Shown here: positions 3,948 to 27,831 of the stretch, in pieces | Layout: every line of letters starts with the position of its first letter | Position numbering within the stretch: position 1 is the stretch's first letter | Origin: an uncultured Veillonellaceae bacterium | GTDB taxonomy: Bacteria > Bacillota > Negativicutes > Veillonellales > Negativicoccaceae | Direction: 5' to 3' | DNA length: 64,000 nt | Assembly (NCBI GenBank): GCA_945876385.1 | Contig: CAMCNU010000002.1 | Span: 62,001 to 126,000, forward strand | Position numbers and translations under genes: made by a program | The notes under the pieces: model-generated | Seen by the model: the letters and a program-made list of their open reading frames with translations, nothing else | The model's database searches: none | Told to the model about the DNA's origin: nothing

Positions 3948-4280
3948 ACTTTCTCGAACCTCCAATCGATGACTACCGCTATCTCGAACACATCCTTTTT
4001 TGCATTTAAGTCCCACCGCAGATGTATTCTTTAGCCTCCCACATCCGTCAATTTATAATAAGTATATATACTTATATACGTCCAACATAAATATATCACA
4101 CAAATATAATTATTTTCAATATTTTCAGGATTATATTTAATTAAGCCTATTACCTTTTATCATTCCGGTATTTCGATTACGGACGCGTTTAGCCGTGTAT
4201 AGCCGCACCATTCATATCACACCAACCGCCGCTACTCTCCAACGTTATCGCACTCTTCGCTTCCCGTTTATCACAATCAC
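3948..4280. other. AT-rich intergenic and leader region of the adhesin
   Basis: No gene is seen. The stretch from about 4040 to 4160 is strikingly AT-rich compared with its surroundings. On the minus strand it holds several promoter-like pairs, for example TTGAAA with an AT-rich -10 about 17 bases on. It also holds the 18-bp palindrome listed separately. The adhesin therefore probably has a leader of about 100 bases or more. The exact promoter cannot be chosen by eye. Confidence 0.5.
4058..4075. promoter_or_regulatory. Perfect 18-bp AT palindrome, possible operator of the adhesin gene
   Basis: ATAAGTATATATACTTAT reads the same on both strands. It lies about 110 bases upstream of the adhesin start, within the promoter-like AT-rich block. 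That is a typical position for a repressor or activator site, but the protein is unknown. Palindromes made only of A and T can also arise by chance in such a region. Confidence 0.4.
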
Positions 4281-7849: not shown

Positions 7850-9411
7850 CTGTCACGCCTCCTTTCCAAACGCACATTGACGCCGAATACATCGGCAAAG
7901 AAACGGTTTTCTTCCTCACAGGTCCACATCTCCAGCGTCGTATCCCGCTGCGACGTATAGGCGATGACCAGCTCGCCCCGCGACAGCGCCGCCTCGACAC
8001 GGCGCAGCTTTTGGGTCTCGCCCTGATCGAGCGCGATCGCCATCCGCAAGACCGCCGCCAGCTTGATGACAGTCATCTTCACCGCTTCCGGCAAGCGCCG
8101 AAAGACCGCGTCCTCATCGCTCGGCGTGCCTTTGTAATTATAATACGCAATCGTCGAGACGACTTCTTTTTCCAAATCGCTCAACCCGAAAATATCCGTC
8201 CCCATGATGATATGATACGTATGCTCGTTGTTTTGGCGCAAATTGACATACTTGCCGACCGTATGCAGCAGCGCCGCCATGCGGACGAGGTAGCGGTCGC
8301 GCACCGTCATGCCGTGAATCGTCCGCAGCGCATCCATCAGCACGACCGTATACTGCTCCACCGCATCGAGATGCGCCAGATTGCCGCCGTAGCGCGAGGC
8401 AATCGAGCGGGCCAGCTCCAAATGCTGATCGCGCAGATACTCCAGCTCCGCCGCCCCCGTCACCAACGCTCCATGATAAAAGACCGCCCCGTACAAAAAG
8501 GTAATCCCCATCATCACCAAGCGCTCCGCGGGGACATGCGCCAAGACTTCCGCATACAGGTGCAACGTCGGCAACAACGCCTCTGCCTGCGGCTCGGTCA
8601 TATCGTCATAATGCATCAGCCCCGTCGCCGTCTTGTCGCCCACCTCGGCGAATACCCGCGCAAAATTTTCCGGCGAGAGCATCATCATATCGTGATTACT
8701 GCGCACCCCCATCAGGCGCGCCACCATCCGCGACTCGCGCCCCGACAGGACGACACTGCGGATATCACACCGCTCCAGCATCGGCCAAATCGGCGCCAAC
8801 ATATGCCGCAAGTACTCACTCACCGCCTGCGGATACGATTGCGCGTCGCGCTGGCGGCGGTCAAACCGCTCGAGCAGGCGCAGCGTCCCGATATGCACAT
8901 TTTGCTGGTAGGTCAAGCGGTCGTCCTCCCACGCGGTAAATCCGACCGAACTCGACGTAATATCGACAAAGAGCACCCCGCCCTCGATCGGCCGGCGTCC
9001 CTGCCCGTACGGATGCGTCAGCCGATGATGCAACGCAAAATGCTTGAAATAAATCTCCTGCGGCATATCCACGACCTGCACATCCAGCGTCGTATGCACC
9101 CGAATCAAATCGAGTATCATGCGCCGGTTTTCCGCTTCCCGCAGCACCGCCGTCGCATACACGACCACCTCGGTCACCTGATAGTCCGCCAATATCCGCC
9201 GAAATCCGTTCAAATACCGACACATCCGCCGTATCGACGTAAACGAGAGCGCGCCCGTGGCAAACACCTCTTCACCGAAATCCGCCGCGCGGCGCGCCTG
9301 CTGGACGACGGTGACATGTCGGCTGTCCGTGTACTCGGCGATACACAGCGACAGTGCCACCGACCCGATATGAATGACGCCGTACAGGCGTCCGCGTTTG
9401 GTAGTTGTCAT
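7846..9411 (-). CDS. Ppx/GppA-like protein with HD domain and degenerate phosphatase motifs
   Basis: This 521-residue protein has the layout of the Ppx/GppA family: an ASKHA-fold N-terminal half and a C-terminal HD-type half (LLHTVGKY). The motifs that bind phosphate and metal are altered. The usual DLGSNS is HIGSVALS, DLGGAS is VDITSSSVG, and GIGGT is VVLSGRES. The same motifs are intact in the paralogue at 9554-11119. The fold is thus retained but hydrolysis is doubtful. It may regulate Ppk, with which it is translationally coupled, or act through the HD domain. The start ATG at 9411 has AAGGAGG ahead of it. Certainty is high on family and moderate on inactivity. Confidence 0.85.
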   Translation of the reverse strand: MTTTKRGRLYGVIHIGSVALSLCIAEYTDSRHVTVVQQARRAADFGEEVFATGALSFTSIRRMCRYLNGFRRILADYQVTEVVVYATAVLREAENRRMILDLIRVHTTLDVQVVDMPQEIYFKHFALHHRLTHPYGQGRRPIEGGVLFVDITSSSVGFTAWEDDRLTYQQNVHIGTLRLLERFDRRQRDAQSYPQAVSEYLRHMLAPIWPMLERCDIRSVVLSGRESRMVARLMGVRSNHDMMMLSPENFARVFAEVGDKTATGLMHYDDMTEPQAEALLPTLHLYAEVLAHVPAERLVMMGITFLYGAVFYHGALVTGAAELEYLRDQHLELARSIASRYGGNLAHLDAVEQYTVVLMDALRTIHGMTVRDRYLVRMAALLHTVGKYVNLRQNNEHTYHIIMGTDIFGLSDLEKEVVSTIAYYNYKGTPSDEDAVFRRLPEAVKMTVIKLAAVLRMAIALDQGETQKLRRVEAALSRGELVIAYTSQRDTTLEMWTCEEENRFFADVFGVNVRLERRRDR

Positions 9412-9553: not shown

Positions 9554-11119
9554 ATGAAGGATATGCAAGGAAGAGAACGTATCGCGGTCATCGACCTCGG
9601 TTCAAACTCGGCCCACCTGGCCGTCATGGAAGTCTTGACCGCCGAGCCCGCCGCCGCGTACCGCCAGATTTATCACGACAAGACCGCCGTCCGCCTGAGC
9701 CAAGGCCTGACGGACACGGGCGCCCTGCGCGAAGACGCCATGGAACGCACGCTCGACGTACTGCGCCAATTCGTCCGCATCGCCCGCCGCATGCACGTCA
9801 CCCGCACGCTCGCCGTCGCGACCGCCAGCATGCGCCTGGCGACCAACGGCAGCGCCTTTCGCGACCGCATCGCCGACGAGACGGGGCTTTCGATTGACAT
9901 CATCAGCGGCGAACGCGAAGCCGAGCTCGGCTACATCGGCGTCGTCAACACCCTCCCCGAGCGGGACTGCATCATCTTTGACCTTGGCGGCGCGAGTATG
10001 GAAATCTCCCTCGTCCGCCGCCGCCGCCGGATTCGTTCCGTGAGCCTGCCGATCGGCGCGCTGACACTGACCGACGCCTACGGGACCGCCGGTGTCACCG
10101 ACGACGCCCGCCGTCGCCGTGTGGCCACAGCGGTCACCGACGCCCTCGCCGCCATCCCCGATATCCGCAAAGCGCGCATCCCCGTCATCGGCATCGGCGG
10201 TACGGTGCGCAACCTCGCCAAAATCCACCAACGGGAAATCCGGTACCCCATTCCCAAGCTCCACCACTACCGGATGACACCCGCCGTCGTCCGTACCCTG
10301 ACAGACCGGCTCTGCGCCGCCACCCTCGACGAACGCCGCGACGTCTCGGGCCTCTCCGCCGAACGGGCCGACATCATCAACGCCGGCAGCATCGCCATCG
10401 ACACCTTGCTCCGGGCCGTCGATGCCCCCACCCTCATCATCAGCGGTTGCGGTCTGCGCGAAGGTCTCTTTTTCCAGGATTACGCGCGCCATTATCGCGG
10501 GGACATGCTCTTCCCCGACGACATGATTGCCGACAGCACCGCCGCCTACCGCGCGACGCTTCCCCTCGACGACAACGCCCACATGCGCTACGTCACGCGC
10601 CTCACCCTGAGCCTGTACGATGCGCTGGAGGCACGCTACCACTTTCCCGCCGCCGCCCGCACCTGGCTGGAGACCGCCGCCCGCCTGCACGACACGGGGC
10701 AAATCATTAACTTTTACAGTACCGCGCGCCACAGCGCCTACATCATCGCCAACGCCCCGCTCTACGGTCTCACCCACCGCGAACAAGCGATTTGTGCCAT
10801 CATCGCGGGCTTTCAGGACGGCATCAGCAGCAAACTCACCCGCTTTACCCGCTACCGCGACCTGTTGGAGGCGGGAGACTTCCGTCTCATCAAACGTCTC
10901 GCCGCGTTGCTCGCCATCGCCAAATGCCTCGCCCATACCCACGAAGGCCAAATCCGCGACCTCATGCTCCACTGCACCGACGAACGCGCCGAACTCACCT
11001 TGCTCTCCGCCACGCCGGACGACCTCGACAGCCTGCGCCGTGCCCTGCACAAACACGCCGACCAGTTCGAACGCTCCTACCGCCTGCGCCTGGTGCTGGC
11101 CGACGATGCCCCCCGCTGA
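9554..11119 (+). CDS. ppx: Exopolyphosphatase/guanosine pentaphosphatase (Ppx/GppA family) with HD domain
   Basis: This enzyme is expected to release phosphate from the ends of polyphosphate or convert pppGpp to ppGpp. The N-terminal half has the intact phosphate-binding motifs VIDLGSNSAHLAV, IISGEREAELGY, IFDLGGASMEIS and IGIGGTVRNLA. The C-terminal half has an HD-type motif (AARLHDTGQ). The 521 residues match the longer two-domain form. An aggag lies upstream of ATG 9554; a second in-frame ATG at 9563 is possible. It is divergent from the ppk operon, so synthesis and breakdown genes share the 142-base control region. The 3' end is followed by a diverged tandem copy of its last codons. Confidence 0.9.
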   Translation: MKDMQGRERIAVIDLGSNSAHLAVMEVLTAEPAAAYRQIYHDKTAVRLSQGLTDTGALREDAMERTLDVLRQFVRIARRMHVTRTLAVATASMRLATNGSAFRDRIADETGLSIDIISGEREAELGYIGVVNTLPERDCIIFDLGGASMEISLVRRRRRIRSVSLPIGALTLTDAYGTAGVTDDARRRRVATAVTDALAAIPDIRKARIPVIGIGGTVRNLAKIHQREIRYPIPKLHHYRMTPAVVRTLTDRLCAATLDERRDVSGLSAERADIINAGSIAIDTLLRAVDAPTLIISGCGLREGLFFQDYARHYRGDMLFPDDMIADSTAAYRATLPLDDNAHMRYVTRLTLSLYDALEARYHFPAAARTWLETAARLHDTGQIINFYSTARHSAYIIANAPLYGLTHREQAICAIIAGFQDGISSKLTRFTRYRDLLEAGDFRLIKRLAALLAIAKCLAHTHEGQIRDLMLHCTDERAELTLLSATPDDLDSLRRALHKHADQFERSYRLRLVLADDAPR

Positions 11120-11758: not shown

Positions 11759-12952
11759 TTATCGTGCCGCGAGCGCACGAACCATCCGTTCCAGCTCCGC
11801 GACCCGCTGCTGCAGTGCGACATTATCCTGCCGCATCTGCTCATTTTCCAGTTGCATCACATAAATCGACGAGATCGGTCCTGCCTGATACCGTGCCGGC
11901 ACGCCCGCCTTATCCGCCGACGAGCCGACCTTGACCGTGACACCGATATTGCCCATCACGTCACTGTCGCCGTCGTAGGCAACACCGCCGTGGAGCATTA
12001 CATCTTCCTTCGCATAATGCACCACGCCGAGCGCATATCCCTGCGCCCCTTCATACGTCGAGATTGCCCCCATAAACTGGGTCGGCGCCAGCGGATCGTA
12101 CTGCATCGGTTTCAACCCCGCCAAGGCGCCGCTGAGCGCGCCGACCTTGTCCACCCGCTTGTCAATCGCCGTCACCCGCGCATCGACCGCCTTCACTTCC
12201 CGCGCGACACCGGCAATCGCTTCCGTATTGCCGACAATGGCTTTTTGATTATCCGCAATGGCCGCCGCATTGACGCTGATAGCCTTTTGGTGGTCGGCAA
12301 TGGATTTCGCATTCGCATCAATCAAGTGCTTGTTCGCATCGATAGATTTCGTGTTGGCATTCACTTGGTCAATCGCTTTATTGACCGTATCCGCCGCTTT
12401 CGGGAGCGCCGTCATCAGGTGGGTTTGCACCTGACGCGCTTTATACGCAGCCGTTGTCGCTTTGTACAATGTAGCCGCTTTCCCTTCCGGCTTTTTCGTT
12501 CCCTTTTCATACTCCGGCATGTCTTTATAAAACGCCAATACTTCTTGTGAAGTCATCCCGAACTTATTCGCAATCATGTTCACTACTTTGGTGCCGACCT
12601 TCCCTAATGCCATCCCGGTCATCCCGCCACCAAAACTTTGTTTCAGCAATACTTTTCCGCTTTCTTCATCCATCATCGGTTTCCCGCTAGAATCCTTCAT
12701 CTCCGTGACCGGATACTGCTCACACACTTGCTTATAAACCGTTGCCAATCCGGTTTTTGTCAACCCCAAATCTTTATCGACCATTTCATTCAATTCGTGA
12801 ATGTTTTGCAGCACCTGCTCATGTGTCGCCGTTTGCTGCTTTCCGGCGTACCAATATGTCCCGCCCAAATCCACTTTGCCGAGATCCGCTGCCTGTGCGC
12901 CTGTCACCATCAAGGCCAACGCTGCCGCCAATACTGCCGCTTGCTTTTTCAT
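11759..12952 (-). CDS. Short YadA-anchor outer-membrane protein with coiled-coil stalk and C-terminal coiled-coil tail
   Basis: This 397-residue protein has a signal peptide (1-21, cut after ...GAQA). A helical region without head repeats runs about 45-190. A regular stalk of repeats such as NTKSIDANKHLIDANAKSIAD covers about 195-265. A YadA-type beta-barrel anchor covers about 268-343 (VGALSGALAGLKPMQYDP, GAQGYALGVVHYAKEDVMLHGG, GNIGVTVKVG). Normally the protein ends at the last anchor strand. Here about 54 more residues follow, finishing in a coiled coil (LENEQMRQDNVALQQRVAEL). With no passenger head it is probably not a classical adhesin. A periplasmic tail suggests a structural or wall-tethering job, which is inference. 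It has its own promoter and terminator. Confidence 0.8.
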   Translation of the reverse strand: MKKQAAVLAAALALMVTGAQAADLGKVDLGGTYWYAGKQQTATHEQVLQNIHELNEMVDKDLGLTKTGLATVYKQVCEQYPVTEMKDSSGKPMMDEESGKVLLKQSFGGGMTGMALGKVGTKVVNMIANKFGMTSQEVLAFYKDMPEYEKGTKKPEGKAATLYKATTAAYKARQVQTHLMTALPKAADTVNKAIDQVNANTKSIDANKHLIDANAKSIADHQKAISVNAAAIADNQKAIVGNTEAIAGVAREVKAVDARVTAIDKRVDKVGALSGALAGLKPMQYDPLAPTQFMGAISTYEGAQGYALGVVHYAKEDVMLHGGVAYDGDSDVMGNIGVTVKVGSSADKAGVPARYQAGPISSIYVMQLENEQMRQDNVALQQRVAELERMVRALAAR

Positions 12953-15716: not shown

Positions 15717-16736
15717 TTATTCGTTCTCTTTCAATAGGGATTTTTCCAAGCGGCGCACGCGCTTGAGCAAGTCGGGCAAATGATTCAATACCCCTTCGAT
15801 ACGCCCCCATTGGCGATGCGGCCGCGCCGGAAATCCGACATAGGTACCGCTTTCTTTGATACTGCCGATGACACCGGTCTTGCCGCCGCAAGTGACATGA
15901 TCGGCAATCGTAATATGCCCCGACACCCCCGTCTGCCCGGCCAGCACGACATGGTTCCCGATGGTCGTCGAGCCGGCGACACCGACTTGGGCGATGATAA
16001 AGCAATCTTCACCGACGTGGACATTGTGCCCCAAGTGCACGAGGTTGTCGATTTTCGTGCCGCGTCCGATGGACGTTTCGCCGAATGTCGCATTGTCAAT
16101 CGTCGTGCCCGCACCGATTTCGACATCGTCACCGATGACGACGCGGCCGATCTGCGGGACGCGCTCATGCTTGCCGCTCATCGTCGCAAAACCGAATCCT
16201 TCGCCGCCGATGACGGCATGCGAGCGGATGATGACCCGCTCACCGATTTCCGTGCGGTCATGCAAGATGGCACCGGCGTACACCGTCGTATCCGCACCGA
16301 CGCTGACATCGGCGCCCAGTACCGTATGCGCCTGCAGCACTGCCCGCGCACCGACCCGACTGCGCGGGCCGATGACCGCATACGGACCGACCGAGGCACT
16401 CTCATCGACCGTGGCCGTCGCATCGACCGCCGCCGTCGGATGAATCCCCGCGGGCGCCTGTACCGGCGGAACAAAGACCCGCACCAACGACGCAAATGCC
16501 CACTTCGGATTATCCGTCACAATCAGCGTCTTGCCCGCGGTATCTTCGGGCTCGTGTTCGACCAGTACGACACCCGCCTGTACCTGACCGAGCGCCGCCA
16601 TATACTCATCGAGCAAAAACGCCGCCTGTGTCTCGGTCGCCTCCGTCACCGCCGCCACTCCCGTGATGACGCGCGTACCGTCACCGACCACACGACCGCC
16701 GACGAGCGCCGCCAGCTCCGCTACCGTCTTTTGCAT
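15717..16736 (-). CDS. lpxD: UDP-3-O-acylglucosamine N-acyltransferase
   Basis: LpxD adds the N-linked hydroxyacyl chain in the third step of lipid A synthesis. The 339 residues are of normal length. There is an N-terminal uridine-binding domain, then a left-handed helix of hexapeptide repeats (for example PTAAVDATATVDESASVGP). The catalytic histidine lies in HLGHNVHVGEDC. The C-terminal helix (ending RRLEKSLLKENE) fits the family. The start ATG overlaps the stop of the preceding Skp-like gene. It proves the cell makes a lipid A-type outer membrane, though other lpx genes are not in this window. Confidence 0.96.
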   Translation of the reverse strand: MQKTVAELAALVGGRVVGDGTRVITGVAAVTEATETQAAFLLDEYMAALGQVQAGVVLVEHEPEDTAGKTLIVTDNPKWAFASLVRVFVPPVQAPAGIHPTAAVDATATVDESASVGPYAVIGPRSRVGARAVLQAHTVLGADVSVGADTTVYAGAILHDRTEIGERVIIRSHAVIGGEGFGFATMSGKHERVPQIGRVVIGDDVEIGAGTTIDNATFGETSIGRGTKIDNLVHLGHNVHVGEDCFIIAQVGVAGSTTIGNHVVLAGQTGVSGHITIADHVTCGGKTGVIGSIKESGTYVGFPARPHRQWGRIEGVLNHLPDLLKRVRRLEKSLLKENE

Positions 16737-17197
16737 CAGGATTTCTCCTGCGTGGCGGTATCTTTCGCGCCGGCTGACGACTGCAAGCGTTTGAGCAAAT
16801 CGTCCGTCACGTCCACACCTTTATAATGTACCGCCTGCTCATGCATGATGATGCCGAGATTTTTCTCTTTGGCTACTTGGGCGGCCTGAGTCTGTACCAA
16901 CGCTTCAAACTGCTGGCGCTTGCTCAACTGAAAAATCCGCATTTCCCGCCGTGCTTCTTCTTCCTTTTTGGCAAACTCTTCCGCCGACAGATTTTGATGC
17001 GCTTCTTCCAGCCGCGCCGCAATCTCTTGCTGTTTGGCTACCATTTCCTGTGTCATTTGTTGGGCCTGGCCGCTCTCCTTGGCAATCCGTTCAAAATTGA
17101 CCGTACCGACATTTTCATCACTGCCGCAACCGCTGAGCAGCATTGCCGTGCCGAATGTCATGGCCAATGCGACCTGTCGCCATACTTTATTTCTCAC
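16736..17197 (-). CDS. Skp/OmpH-family periplasmic lipoprotein (third of three)
   Basis: A 153-residue protein with a lipoprotein signal (AMLLSGCG, lipobox Cys near residue 24). A long charged helix typical of the Skp tentacles follows, then the family's C-terminal motif LGIIMHEQAVHYKGVDVTDDLLKRL. Skp chaperones unfolded outer-membrane proteins in the periplasm; a lipid anchor would keep this copy at a membrane. It overlaps the upstream Skp-like gene by 11 bases and lpxD by one base. Confidence 0.85.
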   Translation of the reverse strand: MRNKVWRQVALAMTFGTAMLLSGCGSDENVGTVNFERIAKESGQAQQMTQEMVAKQQEIAARLEEAHQNLSAEEFAKKEEEARREMRIFQLSKRQQFEALVQTQAAQVAKEKNLGIIMHEQAVHYKGVDVTDDLLKRLQSSAGAKDTATQEKS

Positions 17198-18125
17198 GTT
17201 CCGTTCCTCCTTGTGAAGATGTCGCCATCCGTGCCGTCATCGCGGCCGTGATATCGACCGCACCGAGATTGGTGCGATACTCACTGAAGACGATTTCCAA
17301 TCCTTTTTCCTCTGCCACGGCCTGCGCCGCCCGGGCGATATCCGCCCGCATCGTCTGTTGCAAGGCAGCGAGTTCCGCTTCTTTGGCCGCCAAGCGCTCA
17401 TGCCACTGCGCTTGCCATGCGTCACCGTCCGGCAGCAACGAGGCCTGCGCCTCGCGCGCCATCTCGGCGGCCATCTCATCGCGTCGCGCGAGCAGTTGCG
17501 CCTGCACCTGTGCCGCATACTGTGTCAAATCCGCCTCGGCCTGTGCCTTGAGCGCCGTCAAATCCGCCTGCGCCGCGGCACTGAGCGACGGCTCCCACTC
17601 GACGCCGCCGCGCGCCGCCAATATCTCCGCCAAACGTGCTTCCACCGCGGCACGTTGCGGTTCGTCCAGCGGCAATGCGCGCAATTTGAGTTGCAAATTG
17701 ACCGCTTCCAAATCCGCCGCCGAAGGCGCGGCCGTCACCGCTCCTTGTTCCTGTTGCCGCCATTCCTGTAAACGCGCCTGCAAGCGGGCGTTCCATTCAT
17801 CTTGCCGCACCGTCAGCCGCGAGCGATACTCTTCGTCCAGCGCGGCGGCCCGGTCGCCTGCATCGAGGCGGGCGGCGAGCTGCTGCTGCGCCGCCGCCGA
17901 GCGGGCAATCAAGTCCGCCCGTTCGGCATCATATTCCGCCAGCAAATTCCGATATTCCTGCTGCAAGCGGAAGTAATCGCTGTATCGATAATGCGCATGC
18001 TCCAGTTGCTCCATATCCGCTACGCCGACCGTCGGCGGCGGTGGCGGCGTTTCCTTAGGGCCGCAACCCGCCAGTGCCGCTGCCGCAATCAATGCGGCCG
18101 CCATGGCACGATATCGTCGATTCAC
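17187..18125 (-). CDS. Large Skp/OmpH-like lipoprotein (second of three)
   Basis: A 312-residue protein with a lipoprotein signal (ALAGCGPKE) followed by five prolines and a long Ala/Gln/Glu/Arg-rich helical region. Its C-terminus repeats the Skp signature seen in both neighbours (AVAEEKGLEIVFSEYRTNLGAVDIT). It is about twice the normal Skp length. The middle (about residues 140-215) looks like an inserted or duplicated helical unit. It probably acts as a membrane-anchored holdase for outer-membrane proteins. It lies 11 bases from the first Skp gene and overlaps the third. Family assignment rests mainly on the C-terminal motif and context. Confidence 0.7.
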   Translation of the reverse strand: MNRRYRAMAAALIAAAALAGCGPKETPPPPPTVGVADMEQLEHAHYRYSDYFRLQQEYRNLLAEYDAERADLIARSAAAQQQLAARLDAGDRAAALDEEYRSRLTVRQDEWNARLQARLQEWRQQEQGAVTAAPSAADLEAVNLQLKLRALPLDEPQRAAVEARLAEILAARGGVEWEPSLSAAAQADLTALKAQAEADLTQYAAQVQAQLLARRDEMAAEMAREAQASLLPDGDAWQAQWHERLAAKEAELAALQQTMRADIARAAQAVAEEKGLEIVFSEYRTNLGAVDITAAMTARMATSSQGGTEREK

Positions 18126-18136
18126 GTCGCGCCCCG

Positions 18137-18655
18137 TTATTTCTTATCGGCGGCTTGATCGGCCGTCGCTTCTTTGGACAGCGCATTCGTCAGCGAGGTC
18201 TGGACTTCGTTGGAAATATCCACGCCGCCGTACAAGACCGCCGCTTTGTCAACGACCAGGTTCAGGCCTTTCTTTTCTGCGACTTCTTTGACGGCCGCAT
18301 CGATTTTACCTTGGATATTCTTTTGAATTTCCGCTTGTTTTTCACCGAAACGTTCCTGCATCTTGGCAAAATACTGCTGCTTTTCTTCTTCGCTCATATT
18401 CGCGGACTGTGCATCAAATTCGCTTTGCAATTCCGACGCCGCCGCGGCCATTTGCTGTTGGTATTGCGCGCCGAGCGTGCTGTTCTGTTGAATCATCGTC
18501 GATTGGTCAACGACCCCGATGGACGATGTCGGCGCCGCGTTGGCGATATTGCCTGTCCCCATCATCGCATACGCGCCGATCCCCAGTACGAATACGACCG
18601 CCACAATAAACGATACCGTTTTGACATTGTGTTTGTTCCGTAATGCTTGCATCAT
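18137..18655 (-). CDS. Skp/OmpH-family periplasmic chaperone (first of three)
   Basis: A 172-residue protein with one N-terminal hydrophobic segment (VSFIVAVVFVLGIGAYAMM) that may be a signal anchor. A charged helix follows (SEEEKQQYFAKMQERFGEK), then the conserved C-terminal block KKGLNLVVDKAAVLYGGVDIS. It matches the usual size and shape of Skp, which shields newly exported outer-membrane proteins on their way to BamA. It begins an uninterrupted run of three Skp-like genes leading into lpxD. AAAGGAGA precedes the ATG. Confidence 0.88.
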   Translation of the reverse strand: MMQALRNKHNVKTVSFIVAVVFVLGIGAYAMMGTGNIANAAPTSSIGVVDQSTMIQQNSTLGAQYQQQMAAAASELQSEFDAQSANMSEEEKQQYFAKMQERFGEKQAEIQKNIQGKIDAAVKEVAEKKGLNLVVDKAAVLYGGVDISNEVQTSLTNALSKEATADQAADKK

Positions 18656-18678: not shown

Positions 18679-19956
18679 TTATACATAGCCGATCAGCCGT
18701 AGCCACTGATCAGTTTCGGCACGGACATACTCCAGTCCGATATATTCGCGCGGCCGATAGCCGACCGCCCATTCCCGTTCGTGCGCACCGTGCGGATGCC
18801 GCCCGCGCAGGTACCAGCGTGAACCGATTTGATAGCGCCATATCCACGCGCCATAGCCGTCGGTAAGCTCGTATTGGTAGCCGGCAGTGAGCGCACTGCC
18901 GAAATCGTGCCACCACCCGACGGACCAGTCCCACGTCAGCGTCCCGGGATACAGCACCGTTTCCGTAAACATCGCATCGTGCGACCCGATGCGCCGTGCG
19001 ACCAGTCCGCGTAGCGACGCGCTGTCCGCTTCCCGCCCCGCATCTATCCGGACTTGGCCTTCGATGCGCCATTTGTCCGTATAGGCGTGCAGGACAAAGC
19101 GCAGTGTCCGATCGACTTCCACATCGCCCTGCAATTGCACGGCATACTGCTGCACAAACGCCCGTTCCCGCGCGGTCGCCAGCAACTGCTGCGCCACGGT
19201 CTTCCGATGGCGACGGACAAAATCGACCGGCAATCCCGCATAGTCCGGCAACGCCCGCTCGACGGCCCGCGTGGCATCGGCCAGCAAGAGCCGCGGCAAA
19301 CTGCCGCCGCGCACGACGGCCTCCCCGTCGCGCACAATCTCGCCTTTCGGAATCAAGTAAATGGCGACGTGCGCATCCGGCTCGGCCACGCATTCAATTG
19401 TCACGGTAAATTCCGGTACATGCGCCGCCAATCGGTCGCGCAATACCGTCTCCGAAATGCCGCCGACCCAGTCAAGTGAATCCACCGGCAAGCCGACAAA
19501 GAGCCGACGTACCTCCTCGGGGATATCGGCCAAATCCTGTGCGACAAGTGCTTTGGCTGTCGGCGACAAGTTGCCGTAATCGATTCGGGTCGTGACCGTA
19601 CGCACCGTTTCCCCGTACGGCGCAATCGCCACGCGAATACGGGTCGTCGCCCCCGGTGTCAGCTGCACGTCCGTCACCGCATAGCCGAGCGCCACACGGC
19701 CGACGACATCGGCAATGACCCCCGTATAGGCCGGCTGCCGCGCGGTCAATTCGTCTACATCGCGCCCGAGAAATACCCGCTCACCGATGACGGTGACGCT
19801 CGCCTTCAGCCGATCCTGTATCGAGGCCGGAAGTGCCGCCGTCGAGGTCACCTCGGCGCTCACCGCATGCACCGCCGTCTCCGCCGCCGCTGTCAGCGGC
19901 ATCATCGCCAAGACTCCGGCGACGGCCATCGCCATCCGCGCGCCGGTATAGTTCAT
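18679..19956 (-). CDS. Unrecognised exported protein between bamA and the Skp genes, possibly with a small beta-barrel end
   Basis: A 425-residue protein with a clear signal peptide (MAVAGVLAMMPLTAAAE). I do not recognise its family. The middle (about 40-290) looks like alternating strands and helices, compatible with POTRA-like or other small periplasmic folds. The last 110 residues are rich in alternating aromatic and polar residues (TLTWDWSVGWWHDFGSALTA, GAWIWRYQIGSRWYL, YIGLEYVRAE), as in outer-membrane strands. It lies 66 bases after bamA and 23 bases before the first skp gene. A role in outer-membrane assembly is therefore inferred from position only. The start ATG has GAGG signals just upstream. 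Confidence 0.7.
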   Translation of the reverse strand: MNYTGARMAMAVAGVLAMMPLTAAAETAVHAVSAEVTSTAALPASIQDRLKASVTVIGERVFLGRDVDELTARQPAYTGVIADVVGRVALGYAVTDVQLTPGATTRIRVAIAPYGETVRTVTTRIDYGNLSPTAKALVAQDLADIPEEVRRLFVGLPVDSLDWVGGISETVLRDRLAAHVPEFTVTIECVAEPDAHVAIYLIPKGEIVRDGEAVVRGGSLPRLLLADATRAVERALPDYAGLPVDFVRRHRKTVAQQLLATARERAFVQQYAVQLQGDVEVDRTLRFVLHAYTDKWRIEGQVRIDAGREADSASLRGLVARRIGSHDAMFTETVLYPGTLTWDWSVGWWHDFGSALTAGYQYELTDGYGAWIWRYQIGSRWYLRGRHPHGAHEREWAVGYRPREYIGLEYVRAETDQWLRLIGYV

Positions 19957-20022: not shown

Positions 20023-22221
20023 TCAGAATTGCCCGCCGAAACTGAAGTGGAATTTGCTTTTCTCTCCACGTGCATAATCCAACCGAATCGGTCCAATCGG
20101 TGTCTGTACCCGCAGACCGACCCCGGCCGACCAATGCACCTTGTTGCTGTCGTGATACCACGGAATCCGCGTCCGATCGACGCCCCACGCATTCCCGACA
20201 TCGCCGAAGACGACCCCTTGGACCTTTTTCACAATCGGGAACCGATATTCCAAAGTCGCGGCATACATCTTGTTGCCTTTGAACTGATCGTCTTCAAACC
20301 CGCGCAGGTTATTCGCACCGCCCAGGCTGAAGAGCTCCGAATAGGGAATATCCCCCGTCGAATAGCCGCCGATGACGCGCAGTGCCAGGACTTGGTTGCT
20401 GCCGACTTTCTTGTAGGCACGACCTTCCGCCAGGAATTTGTAGAAGCTGAAGTTACCGCCCAATCCGTGACCGGCCCAGGTGCCCGTCAGCGAGAGCCGC
20501 TGACCGCGAGTCGGATTGAAATAGTTATCACGCGAGTCGTACACATGCGTCAGACTCAGGCTGTTCGTCCGGCCGAAGTTCTTGCCGATATAATCCATAT
20601 CCTTGAAATTCAGTCCTTGCAAGTCCGGATTCTTTACCGCCTTGGCGATTTCTTCATCGATTTTCTTCGTGATTTTCGCCCGTTCGGCGTCGTCTTTGGT
20701 TTTATCGCCGGTCACTTCAAAGCTCATTTCTCCGGCGACTTTCGGACCGTCTGCACCGTTTTGCAACAAGCGATGCACTTCATATTTTTTCTTGTCTTTC
20801 TCATAGGTAAACGGCGAGGACTTGTAAACGGCGTTTTCCCCATAGTTGAATCCGCTCAAATGCTTGTCATAGCGATCGTCGCGGCTTTCCCAGGTGAGGT
20901 ACGTCGCGTTGTATTCGCCGGTCGCCCGTCCGAGCGAGAGGCTGTACCCTTTGCGGCGCTTGTCATAGCGTGCGACGGCTTGGGCATTTTCATTGTAGTC
21001 TTCATATTCGACGACACGGTTGTAGTAGGACGCGCTCAGCGAGGTGCCTTTGTCATCCAGCCACGGCCGCGTGTAGGAAATCTGGTAGTTCTTGCCTTTG
21101 CCCGAACCGCCGAACTCCCAATGCACGTTAATCTTGTCAGCCGTTCCGCGGAAATTGTTTTCACCGAATTCCAAAATCCCGACAAATCCGTCCGATTTCG
21201 AGTAGCCGGCACCGACCGTAATGACCCCCGTCTTCTGCTCGAGCAAGTCGATTTCGACGACGACCGCATGCGGTTCTTTGCCCGGCATCAGGCGCACATT
21301 GACATCTTCGAAAAAGCCGAGGTTGTAGAGGCGTTCCAGACTGCGCTGGGCGAGGAATTTGTTGAAGACGTCGCCGCGTTTGAAGCGCAATTCCCGTTCG
21401 ATGACATAGTCTTTTGTTTTTTTATTGCCCTTGAGGACGATATCTTCAATCCGCCCTTCCGCGACAGACACTTGCAAGACGCCGTCGGCATTCACCGCGA
21501 CATCGGTCACGGAGGCCAGGATATAGCCTTGCTGGAGGTACAGATTTTCAATCTCGCGCACTTTTTGGCTGATGGTGACCGTGTTGAGCGTGCTGTCCTG
21601 CGGAATCGCCATCAATTGTGCCAAGTATTGGCTCGGGAAGACCGTGTTGCCGACAAATTCGAGCTGTTTGACCGTCGGATTCATCGTGACGCGATACGTC
21701 AGCTGCACGCCTTCCGGTACCGGCGTCATCACGGGCGTGATTTGGGCAAAAATGCCGCTGTTCCCCAACACGGTGATGTCGCTGTTGAGTTTGTCCATGG
21801 CCGCTTTGTCGCCGACCTTGGTCGTCAATTGCGGCAGCCACTGGGCCCGCACCGCATCGGGTGCGCCGACGATTTCGATACGGGTGACCGCTTTGCCGAT
21901 GTACGGCGCCAGCTGTGCCTGATCGGCTTCGGAAACATACAAAGCCGGCACTTGTTGCATGTCAATCGACTGCGATGCGCCGACCGTCAGAGCGGGATTA
22001 TCCGCCAAGCCGCGTTCCTGCAGCTGTCGGTTTTGCTCTGCCGCCATCGTGGCCGCGGTCGTTTTTTGCCCGTCCGCCGTCACGGCGACACCGACTGCCG
22101 GCTTGTTAAACTGCATCTGTTCCTGTGACACGCTCGCCGCATCGGCCATGTGCAGACCGCCCACGATGGCCAATGTCACCGCCAAGGCCAGGAAGCGTTT
22201 GTTCGTATGCATTTGCTTCAT
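20023..22221 (-). CDS. bamA: Outer-membrane protein assembly factor BamA
   Basis: BamA folds and inserts beta-barrel proteins into the outer membrane. The 732 residues show a signal peptide (1-29) and an N-terminal Gln-rich linker. About three POTRA domains cover residues 110-330 (VKQLEFVGNTVFP, IEDIVLKGNKKTKDYVIERELRF). A 16-strand-type barrel carries the LRGF motif near 639-642 and ends in phenylalanine (HFSFGGQF). A charged insert of about 80 residues (roughly 468-545) lies in the barrel. The first POTRAs seem fewer than the five of E. coli, as reported for diderm Firmicutes. GGAGG precedes the start. Confidence 0.95.
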   Translation of the reverse strand: MKQMHTNKRFLALAVTLAIVGGLHMADAASVSQEQMQFNKPAVGVAVTADGQKTTAATMAAEQNRQLQERGLADNPALTVGASQSIDMQQVPALYVSEADQAQLAPYIGKAVTRIEIVGAPDAVRAQWLPQLTTKVGDKAAMDKLNSDITVLGNSGIFAQITPVMTPVPEGVQLTYRVTMNPTVKQLEFVGNTVFPSQYLAQLMAIPQDSTLNTVTISQKVREIENLYLQQGYILASVTDVAVNADGVLQVSVAEGRIEDIVLKGNKKTKDYVIERELRFKRGDVFNKFLAQRSLERLYNLGFFEDVNVRLMPGKEPHAVVVEIDLLEQKTGVITVGAGYSKSDGFVGILEFGENNFRGTADKINVHWEFGGSGKGKNYQISYTRPWLDDKGTSLSASYYNRVVEYEDYNENAQAVARYDKRRKGYSLSLGRATGEYNATYLTWESRDDRYDKHLSGFNYGENAVYKSSPFTYEKDKKKYEVHRLLQNGADGPKVAGEMSFEVTGDKTKDDAERAKITKKIDEEIAKAVKNPDLQGLNFKDMDYIGKNFGRTNSLSLTHVYDSRDNYFNPTRGQRLSLTGTWAGHGLGGNFSFYKFLAEGRAYKKVGSNQVLALRVIGGYSTGDIPYSELFSLGGANNLRGFEDDQFKGNKMYAATLEYRFPIVKKVQGVVFGDVGNAWGVDRTRIPWYHDSNKVHWSAGVGLRVQTPIGPIRLDYARGEKSKFHFSFGGQF

Positions 22222-22266: not shown

Positions 22267-22776
22267 TTATGCTTGCCCGCGCAAGACTTTTCCGGCATCG
22301 CTGACCACGGAATTCAGCTCCGCTTGGGATAACGGCGCCGCGACAGTCACCACTGCCGCAGGCTCGCTCGCCGGCGCTTCCGAAACGGTCGTGACGACAG
22401 GCTCTGCGGCGACCGGTGCCGCCGATTTGCGTTCCAATCCCGTCACCTGCGGCAAGACCAATGATGTCGGCACTTCACGTACGACGGGTACCGTCGTCGC
22501 GGGTGCGCGCGCCGCATCGTCCGAGGCCGGCGGCCACATACCGAGCAGCCACATGGCCGCCAGCGCCGCCAACAGCAGGGCCGCCCCTTGCTGCCAATAG
22601 GCCGACCACAGACTGCCGCCGCGCTGCTCGCGCAACTTTTGCCATTCGGCTTGTGCCAGCATCAAGTTCAATTCTCCTTTGACCGTCGAACGATTGCGAA
22701 ACGACTCTTCCGCTTTTTCCAACCAACGCCGCGTCGCATGCACGCGTCGGGTCAATTCTTCCCGTGAGACCGACAT
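22267..22776 (-). CDS. Small single-pass membrane protein of unknown function
   Basis: A 169-residue protein with a basic, helical N-terminal part (MSVSREELTRRVHATRRWLEKAEESF) and one membrane segment near residues 60-82 (QGAALLLAALAAMWLLGMW). The C-terminal Ala/Val/Pro-rich stretch probably lies outside the cytoplasm. No family was recognised. It lies 45 bases upstream of bamA and 138 bases after the sigma-factor gene. A role as an adaptor or anti-sigma-like membrane partner is conceivable, but nothing in the sequence proves it. Confidence 0.7.
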   Translation of the reverse strand: MSVSREELTRRVHATRRWLEKAEESFRNRSTVKGELNLMLAQAEWQKLREQRGGSLWSAYWQQGAALLLAALAAMWLLGMWPPASDDAARAPATTVPVVREVPTSLVLPQVTGLERKSAAPVAAEPVVTTVSEAPASEPAAVVTVAAPLSQAELNSVVSDAGKVLRGQA

Positions 22777-22914
22777 AGCTTCTCCTTTCCTCTCTTCCGA
22801 TAGTATATAGTCCCGATTCGGCCGCCGCCGCCCAACTTTCGTCCGCCGCCGTGACAGCGACTATGCTGTCGTTTCCGCTTATTTTCGGCGTTTTTCTGGC
22901 TGTGCCGACCGCAA

Positions 22915-23544
22915 TCAGTGCTTGCGCTCTTGCATCAAGCGGCTGAGCATCCCGCGCAGACGGCGAATCCCTTTCTTTTGCAATTGATAAATATACGTGC
23001 GGCTGACCGCCAGCGCGTCCGCGACTTCCTTCGGCTCACGCTCGCCGATATAGATGCTTTCCACCACCAAGCGCTCTTTTTCCGGCAACCGTGTCAAGGC
23101 CTCGCGGACCTGTTCCCAAAGGATTCCCCGATCCGCACACTCAAAGGCGTCGGTCGGCTGCGCTGTCGGATCCGCGGCCTCCAGCGTATCTTCCCAGATG
23201 GCCGCCGGCACCGCCACCTCCATGCCGCTGCGGGCAAGATAGTCCAGCATCCGCCCGCGAATCCGGTGGCGTGCATACAGCGAAAACGCCACCCCGCGTG
23301 TATAGTCATAGCGCTCCGCCGCCTCAATCAGCCCGACCGAGCCTTCCTGTACCAAGTCCAGCAAAATCGGCTCCCGCTGTTGCAAGCGGGTCGCTTCTTT
23401 GAACACTAAGGGCTGGTAGCAGGCAATCAAACGCTCGCGGGCATCGTCGTCATGACGCTCGCGATACGCTTGCCATAATCGTTGTTCTTCGTCCGGTGTC
23501 AATAGCTGCACCGCGGCCAATTCGGCCAAGTACTCTGCCAGCAT
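22915..23544 (-). CDS. RNA polymerase sigma-70 family factor
   Basis: A 209-residue alternative sigma factor. Region 2 contains LLDLVQEGSVGLIEAAERYD, which contacts core polymerase and the -10 element. Region 4 is a helix-turn-helix (EVADALAVSRTYIYQLQKKG). Region 3 is short, making it closest to the FliA/SigB-size class. It sits between tamB (21 bases) and the small membrane protein in the envelope cluster, so it may drive envelope or stress genes. No anti-sigma factor was recognised beyond the adjacent small membrane protein. Confidence 0.9.
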   Translation of the reverse strand: MLAEYLAELAAVQLLTPDEEQRLWQAYRERHDDDARERLIACYQPLVFKEATRLQQREPILLDLVQEGSVGLIEAAERYDYTRGVAFSLYARHRIRGRMLDYLARSGMEVAVPAAIWEDTLEAADPTAQPTDAFECADRGILWEQVREALTRLPEKERLVVESIYIGEREPKEVADALAVSRTYIYQLQKKGIRRLRGMLSRLMQERKH

Positions 23545-23565: not shown

Positions 23566-26500
23566 TCAAAACCGCCATTTCCATTGCGTACCGATGTAAT
23601 AATTGTTCTCGCTGTTCGTCCAACCGCGTGCACTGAATTGGCGATTGATGTCGTAGCGGAACCCGATGTTGTACTGCCGATTGTTGACGCCGGTCGCCGC
23701 CGTCAGCATGAAATCGTCAAACAGATACTTGCCGATTTCGATATTGTACAACACACCCGTGTTGCTGTCGCTCGTCGCTGCAGAGGGGTCAAGTGAGCCG
23801 GTCGTGATATTGATCATATCCAGCCCGAATGTCTCCTGCAGCCGCCCTTCCAAACTGCCGAAGAGCAGCATCTGCGCCGCCGCCCCGAGCAGGATATTTG
23901 CGTCGGCCTTGCTCAAGTCGTTGATATCACCCGTATGCAAGGTGAGCATCGTCACGATTTCTTCTTTCGTCAGGCTCGGCTCGGAGGTCAATCCCAAATC
24001 CAACGCCGTCGGCAGCCCTGTCGCCAGCAAACGGATATGATAACGGTTAAACGTCGTCGCGGCGTCCACGTACAAATTCGGCAAGAAACCGCTGCCGCTG
24101 TTGAAATCGGCATAGCCTTCCGCGACACGGAATTGATTGTTGAGATATTTCAGGTACCCTTTGCGGACATTGACCCGGCCGCTCATCTGCGGAGCGGCGG
24201 TCGTACCGCCGGCGTGCACGTCGCCGTCGATATCCAAATCGTACAAGTACGGATTGTACAAACGGGTCTGCTCGCCCAGATGTACGGCGACATCGAGCGC
24301 AATCGGCATCATCTCGCCGCTGTCACTGAAGGTAAACGGAATATCGAGTTTCGCACGGTCGGTAGCGACCGTCCCCGCAATCGACGGGAGTCCGCCTTCC
24401 ATGCCCAGTGTCAGGTCCGCATTGAGATTGCCGCTGTAATAATCGCTCTTCGGATTGATTTGCGCGGCGGTCAGTCGGCCTTGCAACCGATACGGCATCG
24501 CCTGATCCCAGTACACATCGCCCGTACCGGTCAGCATACCGCCGCCGATATCGCTGCGCACGTCCCAATCCGCCGTCTTGCCGGTAAAATTGACGTTCAA
24601 GCGGATGTGATCGACCGGCGTATGCATCGTCGCCAAGGTCAAGCTGCCGTCCTCGACATAAATCCGACCGTCAATCCGCGGATCGGCCAATGTACCGCTG
24701 ACGACCAATCCGCCGCGGGTCGCCCCGCTTGCCGCCGTTACAGTCGGCGACAATGCCGTCAACAATTCCAAATCCGCCTTGTCGAGTTTGACTTCGACCC
24801 GCATGGATTCCGCCGGATTGTCCGTCCGACCGTCATGCGTCAGCGCCGCCACCGGCACCGTACCGTAGACACTCAAGCGATACGGATTGCGCTCCAGCAA
24901 GGTCTGATTGATATGAATGACGCCGTCTTCCAAGTTGAGCAAGCCGATGAAATGATCGAACGCGACATGATTATACGTACCGTTTGCCACGTCAAAGGAC
25001 ATATCCACCGCGGGCGAGGCGGTTTTCCCCGTCACCACGGCACTGAATCGGACGTCCCCCGTGACTGTCGGCTCTTCATTCATAAACGCCTGCAGGTAGA
25101 GGGCATCGATATGCTGTGCGGCGACTTGCAAGTCCACATCACCGTCCAGCGCGGCCGTCCCCTGCGCGGCCAGCACGCCCTCGCCGAGCGGCATGCGCAA
25201 CTCGCGAATATGGACGACCCGATCGGCCAGCGTCACATCGACGGCCGTATCGCCGATCGGCAAGCCGCGCACCGCACCCTTCGTCCACCGTCCGCGGACG
25301 GTAATGTCGGGATTGGCCGTCGTGCCGCGGACTTGCAGGTGACCGTCAATCAGCCCCGTCAAATGCGGCATATCCGCATTCGCCAAGTGCAGTAGCGGCG
25401 CCACGGCGACCGCCGTCACCCGACCGGCCCCTTCGATGGCACCGGTATCGAAACGATAGCTCCCGTCGAAATGATATTCCCCGTCATGCTGGCGGAACAT
25501 CGCATGCCGTAGCGCCACCACCCCGGCATGGTACGCCACTTCCGCGGACGCATCCTGCACGGCTTCGCCGTTGACCGACAGGCCGTCGCCGGTCACCGTC
25601 GCATAGAGCACGGGATCCGACGGCCGCCCGACGATGCGGCCGCGAGCATGGATATCCCCCTGCGCTTGCACACTGTTGCGTTCACGCAAAATCCGATCGA
25701 CATCTATCCCGCTTGCCGTCCAGTCGATGTGCATGGCGTCCGGTGCGACTTGCCCGCGGGCCGTCACCGTACCGTTATATAGCGCCGCCTGCGCATCCAA
25801 CCGGATCGCGCCCGCCGCATAGCGATACGCAGCGCGTACATCTTGGTACAACTCACCCATCACCGAGCCGTCCCAAGCATGAATCGTTCCCTGCGCCGTC
25901 GGCGCATCAATCGTCCCGCCGACGGTCAAGGTATGGTCAAACCAACCGGTGACCGCCATCCCCGCATCGGCGGCAGCCAACCAGTGTTCCAAGCGCCCCC
26001 GCTTGCCGACGGCACGAAGTTCCAAACGGCCGTCCCCGCCCCAGTCAACCGTACCGTTGACCGTCTGCGTCCCGTCCGCATCCGTCCATAACCAATCGCG
26101 CAAGGTGAGCACGCCGTCCCGATAGTCGGCATGCCCCGTCACCGTCCGGAACGGTACCCCTTGCACCGCACCGTCGCGTGCCGTCAACGCCGCCTCGACA
26201 TGCGGGGCATCCGTCCGACCGCGCACCGTCCCTGCGGAGGTCAGCGTCCCCGTCAGCGCGATGCCCGTCGCCGGTGCCAAACGTGCCAGCGGAATCTCAT
26301 TGGCCGACCAGACCAAATCGGCCCGCTCGCCCCAGTGTCCCGCGGCAGTCAGCGTCCCGCCGCCGACGGTTCCCGTCAAATGCCGAATGAGGACATCGCC
26401 GTCCGCATACGTCACCGCGCCGCTGATACTGTCGGTCATGATGCCGCGCGCTCCGACGCCGCGTCCGTCAAATACCGCGTCCGCCGTGTACACGCCCGCA

Positions 26501-27831
26501 TCCGCCGCCACGGCGGCCTGCCCGCTGACCACGCCCGTCACTGCTTCGGATAAGGGCAACAGCGCCAAATCCGTCTGCGTAAAGGTGACCCGGCCGCGGC
26601 CGCTCTTTGTCTGTAGATTATAATACCCGCTGCCCCGTACCCGCCCGTCACCGATACCCGTCACCGCGTCCGCAATGCGAACGACGCCGCTGCGATAGGT
26701 AAAACGGGTAAATGCATTGGCCAGCGGCATGCCGTCCCAACTGCCGGCGGCCAGCATGACTGCACCGTCAGCCGCCCAGTCCGCCGTCGTCCCGCCGAGA
26801 TGCACCTGCCCCGCCACCGGTCCCGTCAACGGCACATCCGCCAATTGATTGAGCTCGATGCCCGTCGTACGCACATCGATGTCGAAGTGCGGATCGGCCG
26901 CCGGCAAGATGCTTCCTTGCGCCTCCAGCGGCTGGTCATTGACCCTAAGATGCGTCTTCCAAAACGAGACTTGTTTCGAATCGACACGGACCTGCGCCTG
27001 CAGATTCGTCACCCGATACGACGCATACGTCAACGCGGCATCTTCCAGCCGCCCGTTGACCAAGTAGGTGAGCGCCCCCGCATGCCGCTCGACTGTCGCC
27101 GTCCACTCCCGTGCTTCGCCCGCCGTCACCGACAGCGGTACGTCCTGCGGCAACACCCGCATGGCCAGCGCCAGCGGCGTACGGTCACCGTCGGCCGTCA
27201 ACGCAAATTCGTCCGCCGACGTATAGGTGCCGCGCGCATGCAGCGTGCCCGACGCATGTGCCAAACGGACATCCGCCGTCACCTGCGGATACTCCGCCAA
27301 ATCCACCAGGGCCTGAATATCCCGCAACGACAGCGGCGGCTCATCTTGAAACGCCAACTCCGCCCGCCCGTCGATGACGGCAATTTTCGCACGCAAAGAA
27401 AAAGGCGTCTCGGTGTCCTTTTCTTTCAATAAACGGTTGATATTCCACGACTTGTCCGCCTCTTCGCGCAAGGTGACCGACGGCGCATCCAGATCGATGC
27501 GGTCGATGACGCTCAATGCTTCACAATCCGTCAAGAGATACGCCACCAGCCGCGGGACAGTCCAGCCCACCGTCAGCCCGTCGAGCGCCGCGACCGTCCG
27601 CCCTTCGGCGTCACGCACGATGACATCGCGCGCCGTCACGTCCAGATTACCGTTGATATGTAATTGTTCATACTGTACCGTGCCGTTCAGATTTTCCGCC
27701 AGCGCGCGGTCAATCCATTCCGGCGCGGCCGCCGTCAACTGCGGTACCAATACACCGTACACGCCGATACCGGCCCCGATGGCCGTACCGGCAAGCCCCG
27801 CCGCCAGCCACTGCTTGGTCGTCAACGCCAC
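23566..27831 (-). CDS. tamB: TamB-like translocation/lipid-transfer protein (DUF490)
   Basis: A 1421-residue protein with one N-terminal membrane anchor (about residues 8-28), then a very long run of beta-strand repeats typical of the AsmA/TamB group. The C-terminal TamB domain has the features VYWDQAMPYRLQGRLT, RGYLKYLNNQFRVAEGYADF and a terminal WRF. TamB spans the periplasm as a hydrophobic groove and is now thought to carry phospholipids outward. It starts with GTG at 27831 behind GGGAG. Its place between tolC/mla and bamA in one gene string supports a shared role in building the outer membrane. Confidence 0.93.
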   Translation of the reverse strand: MALTTKQWLAAGLAGTAIGAGIGVYGVLVPQLTAAAPEWIDRALAENLNGTVQYEQLHINGNLDVTARDVIVRDAEGRTVAALDGLTVGWTVPRLVAYLLTDCEALSVIDRIDLDAPSVTLREEADKSWNINRLLKEKDTETPFSLRAKIAVIDGRAELAFQDEPPLSLRDIQALVDLAEYPQVTADVRLAHASGTLHARGTYTSADEFALTADGDRTPLALAMRVLPQDVPLSVTAGEAREWTATVERHAGALTYLVNGRLEDAALTYASYRVTNLQAQVRVDSKQVSFWKTHLRVNDQPLEAQGSILPAADPHFDIDVRTTGIELNQLADVPLTGPVAGQVHLGGTTADWAADGAVMLAAGSWDGMPLANAFTRFTYRSGVVRIADAVTGIGDGRVRGSGYYNLQTKSGRGRVTFTQTDLALLPLSEAVTGVVSGQAAVAADAGVYTADAVFDGRGVGARGIMTDSISGAVTYADGDVLIRHLTGTVGGGTLTAAGHWGERADLVWSANEIPLARLAPATGIALTGTLTSAGTVRGRTDAPHVEAALTARDGAVQGVPFRTVTGHADYRDGVLTLRDWLWTDADGTQTVNGTVDWGGDGRLELRAVGKRGRLEHWLAAADAGMAVTGWFDHTLTVGGTIDAPTAQGTIHAWDGSVMGELYQDVRAAYRYAAGAIRLDAQAALYNGTVTARGQVAPDAMHIDWTASGIDVDRILRERNSVQAQGDIHARGRIVGRPSDPVLYATVTGDGLSVNGEAVQDASAEVAYHAGVVALRHAMFRQHDGEYHFDGSYRFDTGAIEGAGRVTAVAVAPLLHLANADMPHLTGLIDGHLQVRGTTANPDITVRGRWTKGAVRGLPIGDTAVDVTLADRVVHIRELRMPLGEGVLAAQGTAALDGDVDLQVAAQHIDALYLQAFMNEEPTVTGDVRFSAVVTGKTASPAVDMSFDVANGTYNHVAFDHFIGLLNLEDGVIHINQTLLERNPYRLSVYGTVPVAALTHDGRTDNPAESMRVEVKLDKADLELLTALSPTVTAASGATRGGLVVSGTLADPRIDGRIYVEDGSLTLATMHTPVDHIRLNVNFTGKTADWDVRSDIGGGMLTGTGDVYWDQAMPYRLQGRLTAAQINPKSDYYSGNLNADLTLGMEGGLPSIAGTVATDRAKLDIPFTFSDSGEMMPIALDVAVHLGEQTRLYNPYLYDLDIDGDVHAGGTTAAPQMSGRVNVRKGYLKYLNNQFRVAEGYADFNSGSGFLPNLYVDAATTFNRYHIRLLATGLPTALDLGLTSEPSLTKEEIVTMLTLHTGDINDLSKADANILLGAAAQMLLFGSLEGRLQETFGLDMINITTGSLDPSAATSDSNTGVLYNIEIGKYLFDDFMLTAATGVNNRQYNIGFRYDINRQFSARGWTNSENNYYIGTQWKWRF

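Follow-up and report, generated by a model that had tools for sequence, protein, structure and literature searches.

In the RpoE-RseA system, a single-pass membrane protein relays the state of outer-membrane assembly to a sigma factor. In cell-surface signaling, likewise, a receptor in the outer membrane works together with a sigma factor and a single-pass anti-sigma factor (PMC11637429, PMC7186176). For the diderm Bacillota, no account of outer-membrane monitoring was found among the open-licence papers searched. Their outer membrane is built without BamB-E, LptE, and MlaA lipoproteins, and whether unrelated proteins fill in for the missing parts has been raised as a question (PMC10665443). 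Proteome and genome papers on the group, as far as their available sections go, place tamB, bamA, and skp in one cluster with hypothetical proteins within it; the trio of genes described below does not appear in those sections (PMC5491611, PMC5007114, PMC10665443).

The locus compared here with these systems lies in a stretch of 64,000 nucleotides from an uncultured Veillonellaceae bacterium (the window; all positions refer to it). It encodes a predicted barrel protein (the focal protein), a putative single-pass protein with a cytosolic N-terminus (the linker), and a sigma factor, which would occupy the same three compartments as the components of Fec/Fox-type signaling; as in Fec-type systems, the sigma factor gene is adjacent and co-inherited. 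Whereas Fec/Fox systems employ a TonB-dependent receptor with a signaling domain, the focal protein is predicted to end in a small 10-strand barrel and has no Pfam match; the Fec/Fox sigma factors are of the ECF type, whereas the one encoded here scores nearer to FliA/WhiG models; and the Fec/Fox genes lie beside iron uptake genes, whereas the trio lies in the bam locus. Beyond the general sigma-70 domains, no component of the trio was found to be homologous to parts of cell-surface signaling systems. With RpoE-RseA the trio would share its proposed role, i.e., reporting outer-membrane assembly to a sigma factor via a single-pass protein, but a dedicated protein with POTRA-like repeats and a predicted outer-membrane barrel is co-inherited here, and the linker matches no RseA-type family.

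An exported protein family encoded between bamA and skp

The focal ORF occupies exactly positions 18679-19956 on the minus strand, is intact, begins with ATG preceded by an RBS-like sequence (GAGGTGAGG), and encodes 425 residues. It is flanked by bamA (20023-22221, minus strand), coding for an Omp85 protein with three POTRA stretches recognized by Pfam, and by the first of three skp/OmpH-like genes (18137-18655, minus strand), which lies directly 3′ of it. The protein carries a type I signal peptide (..MAVAGVLAMMPLTAAAET..; about residues 1-25, encoded by 19882-19956, minus strand), the end of which coincides with an AxA-like site in the homologues. A lipobox cysteine was found neither in the signal peptide region of the focal protein nor at the AxA site of the family alignment, which distinguishes the focal protein from BamB-E, which are lipoproteins. 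The second and third skp/OmpH-like proteins (16736-17197 and 17187-18125, both minus strand) have signal peptides with lipobox-like LAGC and LSGC sequences and may thus, unlike the first, be lipoproteins.

Homologues of near full length and without internal stops were present in 30 of 40 relatives, sharing 29-41% identity with the focal protein when the window's own genome is excepted. A profile search, one of the checks named in the original prediction, placed the family in 237 of 300 Negativicutes genomes and in 85 of 97 genera, almost always as a single copy; the motif GLPVDSLDW served as the search pattern for family members. Among the carriers are Negativicoccus, Dialister, Megasphaera, Allisonella, Pelosinus, Propionispora, and the Veillonella species seminalis, ratti, and magna. 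This distribution, together with 22 residues that are invariant across 25 diverse members, argues that the focal ORF is not a chance reading frame. None of 33 diverse members matched a Pfam or NCBIfam family at E ≤ 0.01, the best PDB chain for the single sequence had an E-value of 0.6, and the family profile returned no match of note among the PDB sequences; the MCE domain (PF02470), which Pfam finds in the product of 29388-30503, was not found in the focal protein. The focal family is an old and previously undescribed family of exported proteins, in agreement with the original prediction, which had called the product an exported 425-residue protein of no recognized family between bamA and skp.

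The position of the gene was the same wherever the family was met at a named locus: in all 43, bamA precedes and skp follows it, and in most of them the larger order is tamB, sigma factor, linker, bamA, focal gene, three skp-like genes, and lpxD. In the window, tamB (23566-27831, minus strand) forms the upstream end of this conserved block. In a phylum-level set, 17 of 299 genomes contained the focal gene, nine of them outside the Negativicutes, and all 17 fall among the 77 genomes of the set that encode an Omp85 protein. Of eight loci outside the class, seven have the order bamA-focal gene-skp; the remaining one, L109, reaches its contig end before bamA. A distant homologue (about 22-23% identity) lies between bamA and skp in bacterium GBS-1. 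The suggestion of a lineage-specific component was thus too narrow, as the family extends across the class and is also found in other Bacillota and in GBS-1.

Predicted fold of the focal protein

AlphaFold2, supplied with 33 sequences, modeled the focal protein with a mean pLDDT of 90.8 and a pTM of 0.75. Behind the signal peptide, the model has three β-α-α-β-β repeats (residues 31-113, 120-203, and 210-292) and ten strands (residues 296-424). A barrel-like last quarter had been foreseen in the original prediction, whereas its strand-rich middle proved inaccurate, this part being made up of the three repeats. Combined with hhalign, the model delimits POTRA-like repeat 1 to residues 28-118 (19603-19875), repeat 2, containing the family motif GLPVDSLDW, to residues 119-208 (19333-19602), and repeat 3, containing a GLPVAFVxRH-type motif, to residues 209-293 (19078-19332); the C-terminal barrel, delimited by AlphaFold2, strand faces, and Foldseek, comprises residues 294-425 (18682-19077; all minus strand). 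Repeats 1 and 2 matched one another in hhalign with a probability of 95.9% (E 5e-9); the match between repeats 2 and 3 was weaker (67.9%, E 5e-5).

When the whole model was compared with the PDB by Foldseek, the best 50 matches were all Omp85 proteins (BamA, TamA, Toc75; best E 2.5e-11), with low TM-scores over the whole chain (0.15-0.24), presumably because the angles between domains are flexible and the barrel is smaller. Like the members of the Omp85 superfamily, the focal protein is predicted to consist of POTRA-like repeats followed by a C-terminal barrel, and its gene adjoins bamA; the Omp85 barrel has 16 strands, whereas that of the focal protein has 10 in both AlphaFold2 predictions, of the whole chain and of the barrel alone. 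Homology at the profile level to BamA or to its POTRA domains was rejected on the hhalign probabilities, which amounted to 2% for the family against 50 BamA sequences and did not exceed 1% for any single repeat against single BamA POTRA domains; none of 33 members matched PF01103 or the Pfam POTRA models. The β-α-α-β-β repeats resemble POTRA repeats in their predicted fold and not in sequence, and the resemblance to Omp85 proteins may be due to convergence or to very old descent.

Modeled alone, the barrel reached a pLDDT of 96.5 and a pTM of 0.85. Its top Foldseek match in the PDB was the designed 10-strand transmembrane barrel TMB10 (E 7e-4), followed by Ail and OmpA; lipocalin-like barrels and soluble nitrobindin, the latter with TM-scores of up to 0.63, were matched as well. 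Nine of the ten strands have one clearly hydrophobic and one polar face (means −0.42 versus +1.18 kcal/mol), a contrast that is in part built in by picking, for each strand, the more and the less hydrophobic half. Since some difference arises from this choice itself, the argument rests on the size of the contrast and on the conserved charges: D305, E332, R384, E395, and E409 are on the polar face, the opposite face being rich in aromatic residues. In the model, strand faces and conserved charges favor a membrane barrel with a presumably charged interior.

A small barrel of this kind has a described counterpart in the group, as the long MlaD of Veillonella parvula ends in a C-terminal 10-strand barrel (PMC10665443). 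Both proteins would be periplasmic proteins that end in a small 10-strand outer-membrane barrel and are encoded in the same gene cluster; the long MlaD has an MCE domain and an N-terminal membrane anchor, in place of which the focal protein has POTRA-like repeats. The window itself encodes an MlaD (29388-30503, minus strand) in which an MCE domain precedes an extended helical region and a C-terminus rich in strands, resembling the long V. parvula protein (PMC10665443).

Linker, sigma factor, and joint loss of the trio

Upstream of bamA lie the linker gene (22267-22776, minus strand) and the gene for the sigma factor (22915-23544, minus strand), which has regions 2 and 4 only and is FliA/WhiG-like by model score. 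All 23 linkers that were aligned share an N-terminal domain of ∼55 residues, one hydrophobic segment, a variable tail rich in proline, alanine, and threonine, which is probably disordered, and a conserved C-terminal end (PLSQAELNSVVSDAGKVLRGQA; 22270-22335, minus strand in the window). The hydrophobic segment starts near residue 55-98, mostly 60-70, and in 23 of 23 the N-terminal side of it is richer in lysine and arginine. From these sequence features, the linker is predicted to be a single-pass inner-membrane protein with its N-terminus in the cytosol. It belongs to no known family, and for the N-terminal domain no match to a known anti-sigma family was found.

The focal gene is missing from 63 of the 300 Negativicutes genomes of the profile search, and bamA and skp are intact in those inspected, so that strict fixation beside bamA, as the original prediction had it, is rejected. 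In the focal-negative genomes that were inspected first, among them Veillonella sensu stricto and two of the Dialister group, skp directly follows bamA, and no sigma factor or linker gene was seen in the stretches read; a TamB-like end is right before bamA in most of these genomes and was unseen where the stretch was short. Three skp genes immediately downstream of bamA are on record for V. parvula (PMC5491611), which is consistent with the absence of the focal gene there. The absence in three drafts (G036, G145, and G162) is uninformative because bamA was not found in them either; in a fourth (G059), the bamA match was weak.

The linker was found in 237 of the 300 genomes, and its occurrence agreed with that of the focal gene in 296 (both present in 235, both absent from 61). 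Two genomes with the focal gene alone were rejected as true exceptions, both being due to contig ends, and the two with the linker alone rest on weak matches (E 1.4e-5 and 7e-4) and have no sigma factor. The best sigma factor match did not exceed 98 bits in any of the 63 focal-negative genomes, as opposed to 252-303 bits in four focal-positive controls. Mapped on a BamA tree, which is not a species tree, the focal gene underwent at least 12 changes on supported branches, with about 12 independent losses, and the linker followed it in 11-12 of 12 independent pairs (sign test, p 0.0005-0.001; a weak linker match in G128 was counted as presence). Deletion of neighboring genes in a single event does not explain this pattern because bamA, which stays, lies between the genes that are lost. 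The joint loss could stem from transfer events that replaced the block as a whole, or from a shared need for the three products without contact between them.

Outside the class, neither a sigma factor nor a linker gene was detected beside bamA in 11 of 12 loci of other Omp85-bearing Bacillota without the focal gene. Solid linker matches in the phylum-level set were confined to the 17 focal-positive genomes and two others, G311 (L142) and G511 (L193), in which sigma factor and linker are encoded and skp comes after bamA, the focal gene being absent. Eight linkers from focal-positive loci outside the class display a related C-terminal pattern by eye (e.g., IELDLNQLVKLASDSLRG and VNYDLDMLVDLATKVLYA), three of the eight being significant with a profile trained on the class and the rest being matched by eye. 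The linkers of G311 and G511 retain the N-terminal domain but not this C-terminal pattern, as would be expected, on the evidence of two genomes, if the C-terminal end of the linker serves the focal protein. These natural exceptions would point to the partner of each linker end. When further exceptions were sought in the class of G311, G311 alone was returned.

Possible roles of the trio and other features of the window

With a probability of roughly one half, we regard the focal protein as an outer-membrane sensor or tether that acts via the linker on the sigma factor, by analogy with Fec-type systems and not as their homologue. It would be anchored in the outer membrane, with three periplasmic POTRA-like domains on a small 10-strand barrel; the conserved end of the linker's long periplasmic tail would dock on these domains, and the cytosolic N-terminal domain of the linker would hold or modulate the FliA-like sigma factor. 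In this way, the focal protein would signal the condition of the outer membrane, most likely the correct placement of barrels by BamA, and the sigma factor would in turn alter gene expression, probably also that of the linker-bamA-focal gene-skp unit. We put forward more tentatively that the bam locus thus harbors a sigma factor circuit in which a new combination of POTRA and barrel folds senses BamA activity and signals via a tail-docking linker. It is possible, although we hold this with equal reserve, that such a circuit represents a form of outer-membrane quality control unrelated in sequence to the proteobacterial ones, which occurs in diderm Bacillota and GBS-1 and was repeatedly discarded. 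Linked to bamA, lost as a unit, and with products that would reach from the cytosol through the inner to the outer membrane, the trio is a specific and testable candidate for outer-membrane monitoring; if the circuit is real, the group may have a built-in link from the state of its outer membrane to gene expression.

The focal protein might instead be an accessory subunit of BAM or TAM, its POTRA-like domains binding BamA, TamB, or Skp, aiding barrel folding, and replacing BamB-E, with sigma factor and linker having only a regulatory function. A part in the Bam or lipid pathway was also what the original prediction had proposed. An accessory subunit would agree with the predicted POTRA-like repeats and outer-membrane-type barrel, with the lack of BamB-E in diderm Bacillota (PMC5007114, PMC10665443), and with the location of the gene, which has bamA and skp as its immediate neighbors in all intact loci read. 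However, the presence of the focal gene tracks sigma factor and linker and not bamA: it was lost about 12 times while bamA and skp were kept, its loss always includes sigma factor and linker, and where the focal gene alone is missing, the C-terminal end of the linker is missing too. Moreover, Veillonella sensu stricto does not have the gene and yet has an assembled outer membrane (PMC5491611). A part in the Bam or lipid pathway is possible, and the accessory-subunit role is the main rival of the sensor reading, but it appears rather unlikely to us.

A function as a periplasm-spanning tether, in which focal protein and linker would mechanically join the two membranes at BamA sites and the sigma factor would be a co-transcribed regulator, agrees with the architecture of the linker, in which a single transmembrane helix is followed by a long tail of low complexity with a conserved end. 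In a pure tether, however, the conserved cytosolic N-terminal domain and the adjacent sigma factor gene would have no role, and this group already has an outer-membrane tether in OmpM (PMC5491611), which renders this explanation improbable. We consider it least probable that the barrel is soluble and outside the membrane, as part of a small lipid- or ligand-handling protein of the nitrobindin or lipocalin kind with periplasmic repeats. The Foldseek matches to such barrels are as expected for it, but the transmembrane barrels TMB10, Ail, and OmpA obtained better E-values, and conserved charges on the polar face opposite an aromatic-rich one are as in a membrane barrel.

A conserved promoter-like element ahead of the linker gene also speaks for the sensor reading. 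When this region was searched for motifs in 33 loci, the element GATTATAT was returned, accompanied at a constant distance by an upstream half that is less clear; sigma-28 promoters presumably have a similar spacing. Of 20 held-out genomes from other families, about 13 had their best match to the element at the expected place. In the window, GACTATAT (22805-22820, minus strand) may tentatively be taken as a −10-like promoter element. A second strong match in the window, at 4103, falls in an AT-rich stretch and has no obvious gene following it, which is why no regulon is claimed. Second promoter-like matches were also seen in the Veillonella-type loci L062 (15732), L067 (15870), and L071 (15860), the last being followed at about 80 bases by an lpxA-like gene.

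The AT-rich stretch itself (4040-4140) is in a GC-rich region beside a gene for a trimeric-autotransporter-like protein, the start of which (2763-4016, minus strand) encodes SIAIGKGAT-type sequence. Further along, three genes (5729-7849 and 7846-9411, minus strand; 9554-11119, plus strand) are what we take to be a polyphosphate-kinase-like gene adjoining two divergent Ppx/GppA-like genes. They are followed by a gene (11759-12952, minus strand) for an exported coiled-coil protein with IADNQKAI-type repeats, which resembles an autotransporter anchor.
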